Program-made: the position numbers and the translations under genes | Notes under the pieces: generated by a model | Databases searched by the model: none | What the model was told of the DNA's origin: nothing | The model's input: only the letters and a program-made list of their open reading frames with translations | Shown here: piece after piece, positions 6,115 to 11,510 of the stretch | How the letters are laid out: each line of letters starts with the position of its first letter | Numbering within the stretch: position 1 is the stretch's first letter | Source: Pseudanabaena sp. Chao 1811 | GTDB taxonomy: Bacteria; Cyanobacteriota; Cyanobacteriia; Pseudanabaenales; Pseudanabaenaceae | Assembly (NCBI RefSeq): GCF_027942295.1 | Contig: NZ_CP101416.1 | Coordinates: 2,962,501-3,026,500 of the forward strand | Length of the DNA stretch: 64,000 nucleotides | Reading direction: 5' to 3'

Positions 6115-6260
6115 CTAATTATGAGCCTCATTCAGTTGAACCACATTGCCTGCAATGAGTTGCCATTGACCATTTAACATCGCCCAAGTTCTTCCATATC
6201 GGTAATAGCTATGAAAGTCTTGACCATTCATAGTGCCACTGATTTCCGCTTTAACGGTTA
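6115..6260 (-). pseudogene. C-terminal remnant of an NTF2-like/DUF4440 protein
   Basis: In the minus frame ending at 6115 the translation runs TVKAEISGTMNGQDFHSYYR, then YGRTWAMLNGQWQLIAG, then NVVQLNEAHN and stop. The pattern 'Y.R.W....G.W.LIAG..' is typical of the last beta strands of the nuclear-transport-factor-2/DUF4440 fold. The frame is cut at 6261 by the end of the IS1-family element, and I cannot find the missing 5' part on the other side, where xisH begins instead. About 47 codons remain. Confidence 0.65.
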
Positions 6261-6287
6261 GGTAATGTGTCACAATTGTTGGAGCAT

Positions 6288-6788
6288 TCAAAGGGATTGA
6301 AACGAAAACTCATAGCTGTTGATAAACAGACCAATGACAATATCATGCATCACAATGGATTTAGAAAAGCAAATCGTCTTTCTAGCTAAACGCTTAATCC
6401 GCGTTCGCAAAGTTAGATATTTTCGTTCAATTTTCTGAGTGTTTCTCTTGCCAATTAGGTGAGTGTGAGGCTCAAGAATCCTTTCGTATGCACCCCATGC
6501 ATCGGTGAAAAAATGCTTGATCCCAAAAGGTTTTAGCAGATTCACCAGTTTAATCAAGGCTTCATCTTTATGTGGGGCTAAAACATAAGCTAAAACCCTT
6601 CCAGTCAGATGATCAATAGAGGGCGCATAGCCATCTTTGCTGTTTCTTGCTACCAACAAAACTCCACATTTCATCCATTTCTGCGTCGTCTACTTGATAA
6701 AGGTCAACATCAAGTGTTTCTATATCAAGTTGCTCTAGCAGAGGATAGTTGACGGATTCAATGTCTTCCTCTTTTTTTTAACTCTTTG
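6288..6788 (-). pseudogene. IS1-type transposase, catalytic (InsB-like) part, broken
   Basis: Reading from the interruption, one frame gives EEDIESVNYPLLEQLDIETL and MDEMWSFVGSKKQQRWL, the IS1 DDE-domain start. The continuation SIDHLTGRVLAYVLAPHKDE, then FTDAWGAYERILEP and the C-terminal IERKYLTLRTRIKRLARKT lie in a different frame. The switch occurs just after Arg-Trp-Leu, near 6630, and looks like a one-base loss. A second frame change is needed at an A8 run (6772-6779, T8 on the plus strand) where the InsA part joins. Confidence 0.8.
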
Positions 6789-6793
6789 ATCAC

Positions 6794-8081
6794 CAATACT
6801 TCGGACAAAATTAGAAAGCAATAGCGCCGTAAGAACAAAGGTCTGGGAACCTAGGATGAGATTTAATCAAAGTAGAATCCAAATCTAAGAGGGAAATAAA
6901 GCGTTCCAGTAAATGCCGATTTAGAGCCAGACGTTTGAAACTAGCCATAGAGAAAACAAAAGGTTTAGGTGATTGATGAAGTTGACATGCCTCAAACTTA
7001 GCGAGATTTAGAGCCATGAGACTAGCATTGAAATGGAAATCAAGCTTAGTCAAGTCACGAGCTTGACAATCGGTTAAACCCGTAAACTGTTTAGCGTCAC
7101 GGAATATGAATTCAATCTGAAAACGAGCTTTATAGAAATCTAAAATATCAGTTGCGTCAAGGTGAATATCGGTTGAGAACAAAAGTACCCGACCGATTCG
7201 TTTTGGATCACGACAGTCCAGCAGAAAAGCAAGACGAACTTTACGTTTAAGGCTCAACGACCAGACAACAACATCGTACAAAAATAGGTTAGGTTCAAGC
7301 TCACGGACTAGAGACATGCGACTGACATCAGTCAAATCCACCTTGCCGTCGTATTTGCGATGTCTACCGAGAGGCTTCTGAACACCTGTATAGACATAAC
7401 GTAAATCAGCATCGCATCGTAATTTGCTAATCACAGCCAACTTCAAGGCAGTGACACCATTAACCCATTTAACTTTGCTGTAAAAGCCATCACTGACTAC
7501 ATAACGGGTTGATTTGGGTAGATAAGGATATGTCGCTTGGAGATGCTCCAAATAGTTATCAATCCGCGTCGTCTCGGTCATTGGTTTTGCAGGTGGAGTT
7601 TGCTGTACTGACAAGGTATAGCCTTGCTTTGCATCAACATCCACTATTGCCAATACCGAAATCTCTAGTCCCTTTTCAGCACGTCCAGCACAGCCATTAT
7701 AGAAATGCTCTATCCCATAGGTTGCTTTGCCACTTTTCGGTACAAATGAGCAGTCAGTCGCGATGATCTGACGAGCAGTTGCTGGAATAGCTCGTTCTAT
7801 CAGGTCGGCGTTACCTTTGATAAAGTTGAAGGAACGCTGGAATTGCCGACGATAGCTCCGTTCTGATATTTCACTATACCGACTCAGGTTAGTAAAGTTT
7901 ACTTTTCCGCACACTACAAATATGGTCGAAAACAGCGTTATCAGAAACTTTTGTTGTGGTTTACTCAGTAGACTGGGTAATATGAAATTTAAGCTATTCA
8001 TTCGGTGCTGGTGTTCAATAACCGCACCTTATACGATGAATAGCTTTTTTTCTATATTTTCTAATTCTGTCCGAAGTATTG
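6794..8081 (-). mobile_element. IS4-family insertion sequence, complete, 5-bp target duplication
   Basis: 1288 bp. Terminal inverted repeats at 6794-6817 and 8058-8081 (24 bp, one mismatch) begin CAATACTTCGGACA. The direct duplication ATCAC flanks it exactly (6789-6793 and 8082-8086). Removing the element and one ATCAC restores the IS1 transposase frame (Asn-Thr-Val-Ile-Lys-Glu-Leu). The intact duplication and open transposase suggest a fairly recent insertion. Confidence 0.93.
6811..8001 (-). CDS. IS4-family transposase
   Basis: 396 residues, full length and uninterrupted. Catalytic residues of the DDE fold are visible: Asp in IIATDCSFVPKSG, Asp in YVVSDGFYSK, and the IS4 signature Y-(2)-R-(3)-E-(6)-K in YKARFQIEFIFRDAKQ. 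The stop codon lies inside the left terminal repeat. The enzyme would cut and paste its own element. It is probably still functional, since neither the frame nor the ends are damaged. Confidence 0.9.
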   Translation of the reverse strand: MNSLNFILPSLLSKPQQKFLITLFSTIFVVCGKVNFTNLSRYSEISERSYRRQFQRSFNFIKGNADLIERAIPATARQIIATDCSFVPKSGKATYGIEHFYNGCAGRAEKGLEISVLAIVDVDAKQGYTLSVQQTPPAKPMTETTRIDNYLEHLQATYPYLPKSTRYVVSDGFYSKVKWVNGVTALKLAVISKLRCDADLRYVYTGVQKPLGRHRKYDGKVDLTDVSRMSLVRELEPNLFLYDVVVWSLSLKRKVRLAFLLDCRDPKRIGRVLLFSTDIHLDATDILDFYKARFQIEFIFRDAKQFTGLTDCQARDLTKLDFHFNASLMALNLAKFEACQLHQSPKPFVFSMASFKRLALNRHLLERFISLLDLDSTLIKSHPRFPDLCSYGAIAF

Positions 8082-8329
8082 ATCACAGTATTGGGACTAA
8101 TCTTTAATACTCGACTTGTATCCCTAATGCCACTGCCATTGACTGCCATTTCTGCCACTTGTTGTTTTACTTCTGGACGATACCCTTGATAGCTGTAATC
8201 AAGAATAAATGTCTTTCGCATACAGTTAGTATTTAGACAAATGTATCTTTTCTTGCCTGTGGCGCTTTGTCCATATCGGTGGATATCTACTCCTCCGCAA
8301 GTTGGACATTCGACTGCTTCAAATACCAT
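8082..8329 (-). pseudogene. IS1-type transposase, N-terminal (InsA-like) part
   Basis: Starts MVFEAVECPTCGGVDIHRYG with a zinc-finger pattern (CPTC...YICLNTNC) and continues into a helix-turn-helix (MAVNGSGIRDTSRVLKISPN). This is the DNA-binding half of an IS1 transposase. The reading frame runs on a few codons into the IS4 element, stopping at 8015, so the product is a truncated fusion. In IS1 elements the DDE half is joined by frameshifting; here the junction has been separated by the insertion. Confidence 0.85.
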
Positions 8330-8403
8330 CTTTTCTCTCTTTCCCTAACTTTTTAGGACTTACCTATTGTTATTACACTTTACAACAAATGTGATACACT
8401 ACC

Positions 8404-8576
8404 GTCTACTCATGCAAGAACAATATCCAGAATACAAGTTGTATCTAGCTATTCCTGTAAGTGCCTATGACTCTTTTTTCCAACTTCCATTTGTACAAAC
8501 AACTATTGAGCAGTATCAATTAAGGCTAGCAATTTATGTACCTGAAGAGGAGACGATCTCAAAATGGCTAAACTAA
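8404..8576 (+). pseudogene. xisH: xisH, 5'-truncated remnant
   Basis: About 56 C-terminal codons remain, including YKLYLAIPVSAYDSFFQLPF and the ending AIYVPEEETISKWLN, which match the C-terminus of XisH, the restriction-endonuclease-like partner of XisI first named in the Nostoc fdxN-element excision system. The N-terminal two thirds, with the expected nuclease motif, are replaced by the IS1 end. An ATG inside the IS1 repeat (8367) could still start a 69-codon hybrid. The xisI gene overlaps the end by 13 bases, as in intact xisHI pairs. Confidence 0.88.
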
Positions 8577-8899
8577 CTGAATATCGTGAGAAAGTCCAAA
8601 ATTTACTGACGGAACTGGCAAATTATGGTTCTTCAGATCATGAGGTTGAGTCACAGTTGATTTTTGATACTGAACGCGATCATTATCAATTAGCTCATGT
8701 TGGTTGGCGCAATAAACGACGGATATATGGTTGTGTTGTACATCTCGATATTAAAGATGACAAAATTTGGGTGCAGCATAATGGAACGGAGTTTGATATT
8801 GCGATTAGGCTTGCTGAGATGGGAATTCCTAAGCAAGATATTGTTAATGGTTTTCACTCAAGTTATATGCGGCAATTTACAGAGTTTGCTGTAGGCTAA
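8564..8899 (+). CDS. xisI: XisI family protein
   Basis: 111 residues, the usual length for XisI. Recognisable stretches: LTEYREKVQNLLTELA, IFDTERDHYQLAHVGWR, VVHLDIKDDKIWVQHNGTE, and FHSSYMRQFTEFAVG at the end. XisI is named for its requirement, with XisH, in fdxN-element excision in heterocystous cyanobacteria, but xisHI pairs are common in cyanobacteria without that element and their general role is unclear. Here the gene is intact while xisH is truncated, so XisI has lost its normal partner at this locus. Confidence 0.93.
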   Translation: MAKLTEYREKVQNLLTELANYGSSDHEVESQLIFDTERDHYQLAHVGWRNKRRIYGCVVHLDIKDDKIWVQHNGTEFDIAIRLAEMGIPKQDIVNGFHSSYMRQFTEFAVG

Positions 8900-8977
8900 A
8901 AGATAACTCCTAGCAAGTTTTGCTAGTACTAAGCTCTAAGCTGACTAGATTATCTGTCAATTTAATTTTAGTGAGTT

Positions 8978-9280
8978 ATGGCTCAACGATTACCCATATT
9001 GATACCTAAAGAAGCGATCGCTAGTTTTTGTCAGCGTCATCATATCCGTAAGCTGTCTTTGTTTGGCTCGATTTTGCGGGATGACTTTAGTAGCTCTAGC
9101 GATGTTGATTTTCTGGTGGAGTTTGAGCCAGAACATATTCTGGGGTATTTTCATTTGATAGGAATAGAGATAGAACTATCAGAAATGATTAATCGCAAAG
9201 CTGATTTACGCACCCCAAAAGAATTAAGCCTTTACTTCCGTCAACAGGTTTTACAAGAGGCGATTGTGCAATATGAATAG
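8978..9280 (+). CDS. MNT-type nucleotidyltransferase (HEPN/MNT antitoxin family)
   Basis: 100 residues. The minimal nucleotidyltransferase motif is complete: LFGSILRDDFSSSSDVD fits GS-x10-DVD, and a third acidic residue follows in RKADLRTP. Such proteins usually neutralise a HEPN ribonuclease encoded just downstream by adding AMP to it. Here the expected start (ATG at 9273 overlapping the stop, reading Met-Asn-Arg-Glu) hits a stop after 24 codons and no HEPN domain follows. The gene is an orphan antitoxin or a stand-alone enzyme. Confidence 0.88.
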   Translation: MAQRLPILIPKEAIASFCQRHHIRKLSLFGSILRDDFSSSSDVDFLVEFEPEHILGYFHLIGIEIELSEMINRKADLRTPKELSLYFRQQVLQEAIVQYE

Positions 9281-9581: not shown

Positions 9582-11510
9582 ATGGCTCTATCCTTTGTCG
9601 GTCAAGACTTGCGTAATCGCTCCTTTCGTGGACGTAAGGACTTAGCAGGTGCAGATTTTACAAATGCAGATATACGAGGCTGCGATTTTCGTGACGCAGA
9701 TTTAACTGGTACAAATTTTACGAACGTCACAACTGGCAAAAGCTACAAACAGGTGATTGTTTTAATTGGAATTTCTGCTGCATTTATTCTTGTTTTCGGA
9801 ACCACATTCTTAGCAATATCTAGGTTTATTTTTATTACTCCAGTTGGCATCCTTTTAGCTGTACTTATTGGCATATTAATGGTTATATATGCTACATCAG
9901 ATGGTTTTACTTCTAGTTTTTCAATTATTTCAGTTTCACTTGCTTTTAAAGTTGCTTTTATCTTTGCAAGGAAATTTGCATTAATTGCTACGAGTCCAAT
10001 TTTGATTATTGCTGTATTTGAACATGCAAAATATGCTTATAGTGCATTTATTGGAGGGAACACTTTTTTAATATTAATAAACACTATAATTACGCTGATA
10101 TGTATTAGTCTTACATTGTATATATGGCGGGGATTAGACACCATGATTCAAAGCGCAACGGGTATAGATTTTGCGCGTGCAGATTTAACTGGTGCTAAGT
10201 TTGTCAATGCAAAACTACAAGTTTCTGACTTCACTGATGCCATCTGTGATTTAGTTAATTGGGAGGGTACAGAGTTTAAGCTTTGCAAGTTACCCGCAAT
10301 TATAGAAGATAGTAAAGTTAGATATCTATGTTGTAATCCTAAAGAAGGCAGAGGTAAAAACTATACATTGACGAACTTTCACAAGGTATTTTTGCAAAAT
10401 GCCGATCTTGTCGATGCTATTCTCCGTAATGCAAATTTTAACGGTGCTGATTTGCGTGGTGCAAAAATTACTAATGCTGACCTCAGCAACTCGCAAGCAT
10501 TAGGAACTGATTTCTCAGGTGCAACTCTCACAGGCGCAAGGATATTTAATTGGGGAATTAATCCTGAAACCAAATTTGAGAATGTTATTTGCACGCACGT
10601 TTATATCGATGAAGCAGGAAAAGAACGCAAACCTGCGAGTGGTGACTTTGCTGAAGGTGACTTTGCGCTTTTAGTTGGAGAGTTTACCAATACACTCGAT
10701 TTTCTATTTAAAAATGAAATCAACTTCAGCGCTTTTCAATATGCTATGCAGCAAATGGCAATCAAAAATCCTGAAGTAGAACTATCCATCAACCAAACTA
10801 AATTTCTCGGTCAAAATAAAGACGCTCTCAAAAGAAGCTACGATGTAAGCCCTGATGCAGACAAAGGCAAACTCCATGCTGACTTTTCGGAATCCTACGA
10901 CATTTACAAACGCCTTCATCCAGAAGACAATCAACTCATCAGGGATTTAAACAGAAAAGTCACATTTTTGGAAGGTGAAGTAAAAACTTTAAAAGTTCTC
11001 AATGCAGAAAAGGATGAACGTATTGCCGATTTGAAAGATGCAAATGCAGGATTCAAAGAAATTGCCAAAACCCAAGCAACCAAATCTAACGATAAAATCA
11101 TTATTGGACAAGTTCAAGGAGATCCCATGTCTGACAAAAATCAAAATATTTCGCTAAAATCCGACGGCAACATGACAGGCATAACCGTCGCAGGTGGCGA
11201 TATTAGCGGCACTGTCACCGTCACGATTCAACAACTCCGTGACAGCGACACCCCCGAAGCGCCAAAACTTGCCGATCTCCTGACTGACTTACAAAAAGTT
11301 ATTAATGAATCTACGGAATTGACAGAAGAAGACAAGGCAAAAGCTTTGCAATACATCGATACGATTGGCAAGTTTGCTAACAACAAAGAAGATCACGACA
11401 TGATTGGCACAGTAATTGACAAAATCATCAAAGTTGTTAGCAAAGCTGCAAAATTACTTACCCCCGTCCAAGCGATCGCCGATGGGTTGCGAAAGATTCT
11501 ACAGCTATGA
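9582..11510 (+). CDS. Pentapeptide-repeat/multi-TM/coiled-coil protein with C-terminal module
   Basis: 642 residues. Order of parts: a first pentapeptide block (about 8-48: DLAGADFTNADIRGCDFRDA), four to five membrane segments (about 58-185), a second pentapeptide block (about 195-330: ADLVDAILRNANFNGADL), a globular stretch (GDFALLVGEFTNTLDF, about 350-440), a coiled coil (about 440-490), and a C-terminal module (about 515-642) that begins with a glycine-rich beta-like segment (SDGNMTGITVAGGDISGTVT) followed by helices. I recall similar C-terminal modules in cyanobacterial signalling or conflict proteins, but cannot verify it. The function is unknown. A membrane-anchored sensor or effector is an inference from the domain order and from its position beside xisI and the MNT gene. 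Confidence 0.85.
   Translation: MALSFVGQDLRNRSFRGRKDLAGADFTNADIRGCDFRDADLTGTNFTNVTTGKSYKQVIVLIGISAAFILVFGTTFLAISRFIFITPVGILLAVLIGILMVIYATSDGFTSSFSIISVSLAFKVAFIFARKFALIATSPILIIAVFEHAKYAYSAFIGGNTFLILINTIITLICISLTLYIWRGLDTMIQSATGIDFARADLTGAKFVNAKLQVSDFTDAICDLVNWEGTEFKLCKLPAIIEDSKVRYLCCNPKEGRGKNYTLTNFHKVFLQNADLVDAILRNANFNGADLRGAKITNADLSNSQALGTDFSGATLTGARIFNWGINPETKFENVICTHVYIDEAGKERKPASGDFAEGDFALLVGEFTNTLDFLFKNEINFSAFQYAMQQMAIKNPEVELSINQTKFLGQNKDALKRSYDVSPDADKGKLHADFSESYDIYKRLHPEDNQLIRDLNRKVTFLEGEVKTLKVLNAEKDERIADLKDANAGFKEIAKTQATKSNDKIIIGQVQGDPMSDKNQNISLKSDGNMTGITVAGGDISGTVTVTIQQLRDSDTPEAPKLADLLTDLQKVINESTELTEEDKAKALQYIDTIGKFANNKEDHDMIGTVIDKIIKVVSKAAKLLTPVQAIADGLRKILQL
11116..11129 (+). promoter_or_regulatory. 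Probable internal ribosome binding site and start codon
   Basis: AAGGAG at 11116-11121, five bases, then ATG at 11127, all inside and in frame with the 642-codon gene. Initiation here would make the C-terminal module alone (127 residues, starting Met-Ser-Asp-Lys-Asn). The position coincides with the domain boundary after the coiled coil. Confidence 0.55.

Follow-up and report, generated by a model that had tools for sequence, protein, structure and literature searches.

The IS1-family element at positions 6261-8403 of the window, by which we mean the whole 64,000-nucleotide stretch of Pseudanabaena sp. Chao 1811 DNA that was analyzed (NZ_CP101416.1, positions 2,962,501 to 3,026,500), marks a joint created by a large-scale rearrangement of the chromosome, and we favor, with somewhat better than even confidence, intramolecular replicative transposition as the process that formed it. 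Both flanks are cut inside a gene at the ends of the element, with the 5' parts of the two genes lost, and the former neighbors of these genes, hrcA and ligA, have been retained elsewhere in the same genome. What is more, the same signature is present in most of the other testable copies of related elements, which suggests, as far as comparisons of flanking DNA go, that this lineage often leaves rearrangement joints behind.

Results

The transposase frames of the element lie on the minus strand, and its ends are formed by 21-base inverted repeats that start with GG and agree at 18 of 21 bases, the left one (GGTAATGTGTCACAATTGTTG) at 6261-6281 on the plus strand and the right one (GGTAGTGTATCACATTTGTTG, read on the minus strand) at 8383-8403. 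Once a second IS nested within it, together with the extra copy of its target duplication, is subtracted, the IS1 measures approximately 850 bp. Pfam locates DDE_Tnp_IS1 (profile positions 27-130 of 131) in the insB remnant at 6288-6674 and the InsA domains at 8015-8329, the insA remnant at 8082-8329 being split by the nested IS; both remnants are on the minus strand. All three scores (117.1 bits for PF03400, 50.6 for PF12759 and 26.6 for PF03811) are above cut-off, and the genes are broken. Namely, insB is disrupted by a frameshift, with its upstream part in a different frame, and by a TGA stop, while the nested IS is the third lesion, and the element is dead. It carries the sole IS1 transposase found in the window genome, which is a single contig of 4.73 Mb, and no other DNA-similar IS1 copy was detected there.

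An IS1-type DDE transposase and InsA N-terminal domains, albeit in broken genes, and paired inverted repeats with a GG start (18/21) place the element in the IS1 family, where a target duplication of 8-9 bases is usual. Here no target duplication of any length from 4 to 14 is present at the flanks, in agreement with the earlier note on this DNA, which had seen none, and in this one respect the copy departs from the family. We take the missing duplication as a trace of the event, and not as a bar to family membership, because an IS1-family element with 0 direct repeats has been published, according to passages of PMC3196728. Relatives of the element were found in several genomes with Pseudanabaena names, and the copy in G011 is from Phormidium tenue FACHB-1050.

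Some relatives are fragments or derivatives. Six fragments in five genomes (L244, L247, L248, L249, L250 and L251; G009, G020, G022, G006 and G004) match just the outer 284-303 bases at the insB end, with nearly identical breakpoints; in all of them except L251 the break falls around AGATTCACCAGTTTAA and is followed by diverging sequence, and the shared breakpoint is read here as a hot spot of breakage or insertion within IS1. A 392-base derivative at L243:1862-2253 (G009:C22) has kept both ends, is internally deleted and MITE-like, and has no duplication. At L252:2099-2486 (G004:C31), a left-end fragment of IS1 stops at base 160 and is followed without a gap by the outermost part of an IS1 right end, which looks like the joining of one IS1 into another.

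The nested IS, which, like the frameshift in the IS1 transposase gene, was missing from the earlier note, is a 1288-bp IS4/IS701-like element at 6794-8081 on the minus strand (ends CAATACTTCGGACA). It has 14-base perfect ends and a 5-base target duplication, ATCAC, at 6789-6793 and 8082-8086 of the plus strand, and its transposase of 396 aa, with a DDE_Tnp_1 domain, is encoded by an open frame at 6811-8001 on the minus strand. G012, G007, G011 and G009 have IS1 copies without an interruption, 841-848 bases long, in which the site of this insertion is empty; in each of these four, the halves of the window IS1 overlap at the site by exactly 5 bases, which confirms the ATCAC duplication. Being located inside the IS1, the nested element is the younger of the two. 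The best NCBIfam match of its transposase, transpos_IS701_3, scores 90.6 bits and does not reach the curated cut-off of 170 that would assign it to the IS701 family. A flank test of the kind applied to the IS1 copies finds duplications of 5-6 bases in the three complete IS4/IS701-like copies that were recognized.

To the left of the IS1, on the minus strand, lies the 3' part of a DUF4440-domain gene (6115-6260), in which 48 C-terminal residues match and approximately 90 N-terminal residues are missing. The stub covers profile positions 72-107 of 107 at 18.8 bits, under the cut-off of 25.2, and its intact relative in G021 (L033:11486-11899), with 138 aa, scores 66.7 bits. Homology of the stub to intact relatives reaches within a few bases of the IS1 end, the blast alignments ending at 6258-6260. 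The gene order of this flank is xthA-bolA-gene-DUF4440, and the relative most alike here is G021, which is approximately 91-96% identical over the window's initial 6.3 kb and whose collinearity with the window genome extends from 2950.0 kb to window position 6258. Past this point G021 continues with the remainder of DUF4440 and then with hrcA, which the intact gene adjoins at 1.16 Mb. In the window genome, the hrcA block is found inverted at C1:3140981-3149006, approximately 177 kb away. The 379 bp of the DUF4440 side that separate the left flank from the hrcA block in G021 were not refound in the window genome, where a protein search also returned the C-terminal part of DUF4440 only. Next to hrcA, bolA is present in G021, G018:C9 and G038, that is, in 3 of the 23 other genomes in which hrcA was located, and in the remaining 20 the stretches examined around hrcA, each of at most 20 kb, do not show it, so the older neighborhood of hrcA rests on three genomes. 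As the hrcA protein of the window genome is 100% identical to that of G021 and 93% identical to those of G018:C9 and G038, we infer that the bolA-hrcA link is older than the split between the window genome and G021. Relative to G021, the window genome has a second joint at L061:9001-9088 (G000:C1:3149000-3149087), where hrcA now ends next to argZ, the two being separated by a short spacer that contains an inverted repeat, with no IS seen.

To the right of the IS1, on the plus strand, the 3' part of xisH (8404-8576; XisH profile positions 78-133 of 134) starts at the very end of the element. Its blast homology to intact relatives begins at 8398-8404, a spread that arises because IS1 and xisH resemble each other in the first bases. 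Pfam identifies a complete xisI at 8564-8899, and the frame list and Pfam an MntA-like nucleotidyltransferase gene at 8978-9280, both on the plus strand; no HepT-like frame is present beside the latter in the frame list. The order on this side is xisH-xisI-MntA-pentapeptide gene-SRPBCC-trpF. In G021, the right flank is found from C1:3305290 onward (3.31 Mb), beside ligA and, among the matches listed, without xisHI; this locus holds a part of the MntA gene (with an internal deletion), the pentapeptide gene and then the equivalent of window position 11187 onward. The order in G013 is ligA, xisH remnant, xisI, pentapeptide gene, SRPBCC gene and trpF. In the window genome itself, ligA is at 3196.9 kb, approximately 226 kb off, adjoining an MntA-HepT pair and a cut transposase gene.

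Two side observations concern these genes. The MntA-like gene occurs twice in the window genome, at window positions 8908-9275 and at G000:C1:3196471-3196839, with 92% identity; the former copy adjoins xisI, and the latter adjoins ligA and has a HepT partner. Moreover, xisH is 5'-truncated in three genomes at different points: at approximately codon 79 in the window (8404-8576), 111 in G013 (L038:9735-9812) and 70 in G020 (L044:9114-9320). The gene xisI persists beside all three (aligned in two pieces in L044), and at four other loci (L039, L041, L045 and L046) both genes are full length. As for the earlier note, its description of an IS1-family element between a DUF4440-like stub on the minus strand and an xisH stub on the plus strand agrees with the Pfam matches and alignments, and its claim that both genes are 5'-truncated is borne out by alignments with intact relatives that end at the IS1 ends.

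The homologies of the two flanks thus run out at either end of the IS1, and they point to two separate loci; in G021, to the extent that it has these flanks, the distance between the loci is 2.14 Mb. When the window flanks were fused without the element and searched in 26 genus genomes, its own included, no match crossed the joint in any of the 25 others. Outside the window genome, the search found six DUF4440 places in five genomes and six xisH places in six genomes, none of them joined. The left matches (G007, G013, G021, two places in G022, and G011) end at base 158-160 of 160, and the right ones begin at 161-164 (G016, G020, G021, G007 and G014) or, in G013, where xisH is cut further in, at 247. 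As controls, the fused flanks of the IS4/IS701-like copies L145 and L146 (5-6-base duplications) and of L208 (an IS1 copy with a duplication of nine bases, found in a Gloeocapsa MAG) were included in the same search, and two of the three joints (L145 and L146) were crossed. For L145, matches in 11 genomes (G014, G020, G016, G011, G040, G039, G001, G010, G018, G022 and G004) span the joint with at least 297 of the 320 bases, and shorter matches span it in G013, G012, G021 and G038. In several genomes the L145 sequence is present at more than one place; its target is therefore a repeated sequence, which made this crossing easier to obtain. The L146 joint was spanned by a match of 92% in G008 and by weak ones (65-67%) in G001 and G021, and L208 had no match in the genus search.

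From the gene orders in G021 and G013 and the positions of hrcA and ligA in the window genome, DUF4440/hrcA and ligA/xisHI look like older gene pairs, and if G021 reflects the older order, the flanks were originally 2.14 Mb apart. A comparison of G000:C1:2950000-3219999 with G021:C1:1110000-1389999 shows many inversions and moves, the matching blocks having mostly around 88-95% DNA identity. With so many rearrangements in the region, several steps may separate the ancestor from the present order.

How typical is this locus of its lineage? IS1 relatives turned up at 58 loci in one scan of GTDB species genomes. Ends and target duplications were scanned at 31 of these; at the other 27 the match was distant, short or interrupted by the end of a contig. 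Six of the 31 (L188, L190, L204, L207, L209 and L225) had no end pair, L186 and L187 (repeats of L185) and L191 (poor ends, 14 of 22, and 1034 bp) were dropped, and L214 and L183 are the same copies as L259 and L260, respectively. The final set of 27 copies with both ends comprises 21 scanned copies together with L258, L259, L243 (the 392-bp deleted form), L241 (945 bp, right end by motif), L246 (itself interrupted) and the window copy; L198 (925 bp) and L221 (725 bp) were retained in spite of their odd lengths. A target duplication was found in three of the 27 (nine bases in L197 and L208, seven in L210), and 24 had none; 1 of 702 mispaired flank pairs passes the same test. In particular, all ten Pseudanabaena/Limnothrix copies (L183, L184, L185, L189, L258, L259, L243, L241, L246 and the window copy) are without a duplication. 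As 24 of 27 related copies lack it, the absence of a duplication does not discriminate and is by itself no argument for a deletion.

For the nine further copies without a duplication, the flanks were likewise fused, with 170 bases per side (101 on one side of L184), and searched in 24 genus genomes. Among the matches listed, which may leave out weak ones, none of the nine joints was crossed, the largest overrun being 5 bases. Among the same matches, homologues stopping at most 6 bases from the joint were present for both flanks in five cases (L260, L184, L185, L189 and L246) and for one flank in three (L258, L259 and L241), and L243 had no homologue of either flank stopping at the joint. At least L184, L185 and L246 have flanks that are present in multiple copies, in part transposase genes, and an empty site is consequently harder to find for these IS1 copies. 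In single copies, Pfam finds genes broken in the flanks: DUF5615 from profile position 34 at L189, a cut IS110 transposase at L195 and a cut DDE transposase at L185. Decay of duplications in old copies is unlikely as a general cause, with 15 of the 19 duplication-less copies among the scanned loci keeping 20-22 of 22 matching end bases. The transposase tree is weakly resolved, and the copies with a duplication fall on one side of a branch with a support of 51/69 only.

Discussion

Intramolecular replicative transposition is established for IS1, and it explains both the joint in the window and the signature of its sister copies at the least cost. Namely, the IS1 transposase would have attacked the same chromosome on which the element resided, a reaction that is expected to yield deletions or inversions with the IS at the joint and without a matched target duplication. 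Later rearrangements would then have scattered the displaced pieces while the IS1 decayed, and the IS4/IS701-like element would have entered it with a normal 5-base duplication, either before or after the joint was formed. In the window genome no reciprocal joint was recognized and no second IS1 transposase was found. Two simpler histories were rejected. A simple insertion, which the earlier note had ruled out, is indeed very unlikely, with no empty site among the 26 genus genomes and both 5' ends lost at the IS1 ends. One single inversion between the two loci was discarded because the left flank would then meet the ligA side and not the xisH side, and because the window genome and G021 differ by several rearrangements.

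The earlier note was right in that the element marks a joint produced by rearrangement, but this joint is not the local adjacent deletion that the note had foremost in mind. In that account, an IS1 between a DUF4440 gene and xisHI that were once neighbors removed both of their 5' ends. The cuts at the two IS1 ends would fit, and IS1 is known for deletions adjacent to itself; a 1975 paper reportedly dealt with IS1 deletions in the gal region. However, DUF4440 and xisH are joined in none of the 25 other genus genomes, so that neither the divergent ancestral pair nor the loss of a promoter region shared by two neighbors, both of which the note had proposed, is supported, and the DNA that should be gone is represented by the surviving hrcA block and ligA, although the 379 bp of DUF4440 were not refound. 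A local deletion is consequently very improbable. An assembly artefact at a repeat is less credible still: misjoins at IS copies are common in draft assemblies, and many of the genomes compared are drafts, but the window genome is one 4.73-Mb contig with a single IS1 transposase and no DNA-similar IS1 copy elsewhere.

The note's other proposal, homologous recombination between two IS1 copies, deserves more weight, even if we consider it unlikely. Two copies, each with its own duplication, would have exchanged flanks, leaving a hybrid here and losing the other copy, which also accounts for the missing duplication and the unrelated flanks; passages of PMC11708052 name recombination between IS copies as a frequent cause. 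Against it, no second IS1 transposase is left in the window genome, and with 24 of 27 copies lacking a duplication, most copies in many genomes would have to be hybrids. What is more, no 9-base flank is shared between copies of the same genome in the six pairs compared, in any orientation tested, though most of these genomes are drafts with unseen copies; the lack of matching 9-base flanks also leaves inversion products with no positive support. Insertion of the element at a double-strand break, by which two broken ends would be joined with no target being cut, as raised in the same passages of PMC11708052, would likewise explain unrelated flanks and the frequent lack of duplications. We give it a distinctly smaller chance than recombination, and in the present data its products look the same as those of intramolecular transposition.

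In our opinion, the window locus is an ordinary IS rearrangement joint, defined nearly to the base, at which two broken genes from distant places now meet, and it is the lineage pattern that deserves a test. Missing duplications are usually explained copy by copy, through decay, recombination or later deletion. A bolder claim, which we put forward tentatively and rather doubt, is that this cyanobacterial IS1 lineage transposes almost only by fusing two unrelated DNA ends, without a duplication, in which case nearly every copy would mark a rearrangement. If the pattern is true, these IS1 copies could be used in Pseudanabaena to mark the breakpoints of rearrangements, and the missing duplication would become a testable property of the transposition route.

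How do these elements compare with known ones? Like other IS1-family members, they have DDE_Tnp_IS1 and InsA domains, GG-starting ends of approximately 21 bases and a length of approximately 840-850 bp, and the two frames, insA and insB, are seen in relatives of the window copy; they differ in that 24 of the 27 copies examined are without the usual 8-9-base duplication and in that the window copy is dead and carries another IS. The nested element resembles the IS4/IS701 families in its DDE_Tnp_1 domain and best NCBIfam match, while its score is below cut-off and copies of its type give duplications of 5-6 bases, as opposed to the 4 bases of IS701.

In the literature, the matches listed (titles and beginnings of abstracts) include no publication on IS1 without a duplication, or on such a lineage, in cyanobacteria, and neither direct repeats nor target site duplications are mentioned in PMC2246112, as far as a word search shows. 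In passages of Ngan et al. 2024 (PMC11708052), IS copies without a target duplication are described at large rearrangements. Like our case, they concern an IS that has no duplication and lies where a large rearrangement has joined DNA; the difference is that those elements are IS150, IS5 and IS481 in laboratory lines, whereas ours is an IS1 lineage across cyanobacterial genomes, studied by comparison only. Copies of IS1-family and other IS elements without direct repeats are already in print: according to passages of PMC3196728, Amoebophilus asiaticus carries the IS1-family elements ISCaa1 and ISCaa4, the former with direct repeats of 0, and 101 of its 122 full-length IS copies have no direct repeats. 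The abstract of that paper takes the absence of direct repeats as a sign of inactivity, and in the passages the flanks are not compared with relatives, as they are here.
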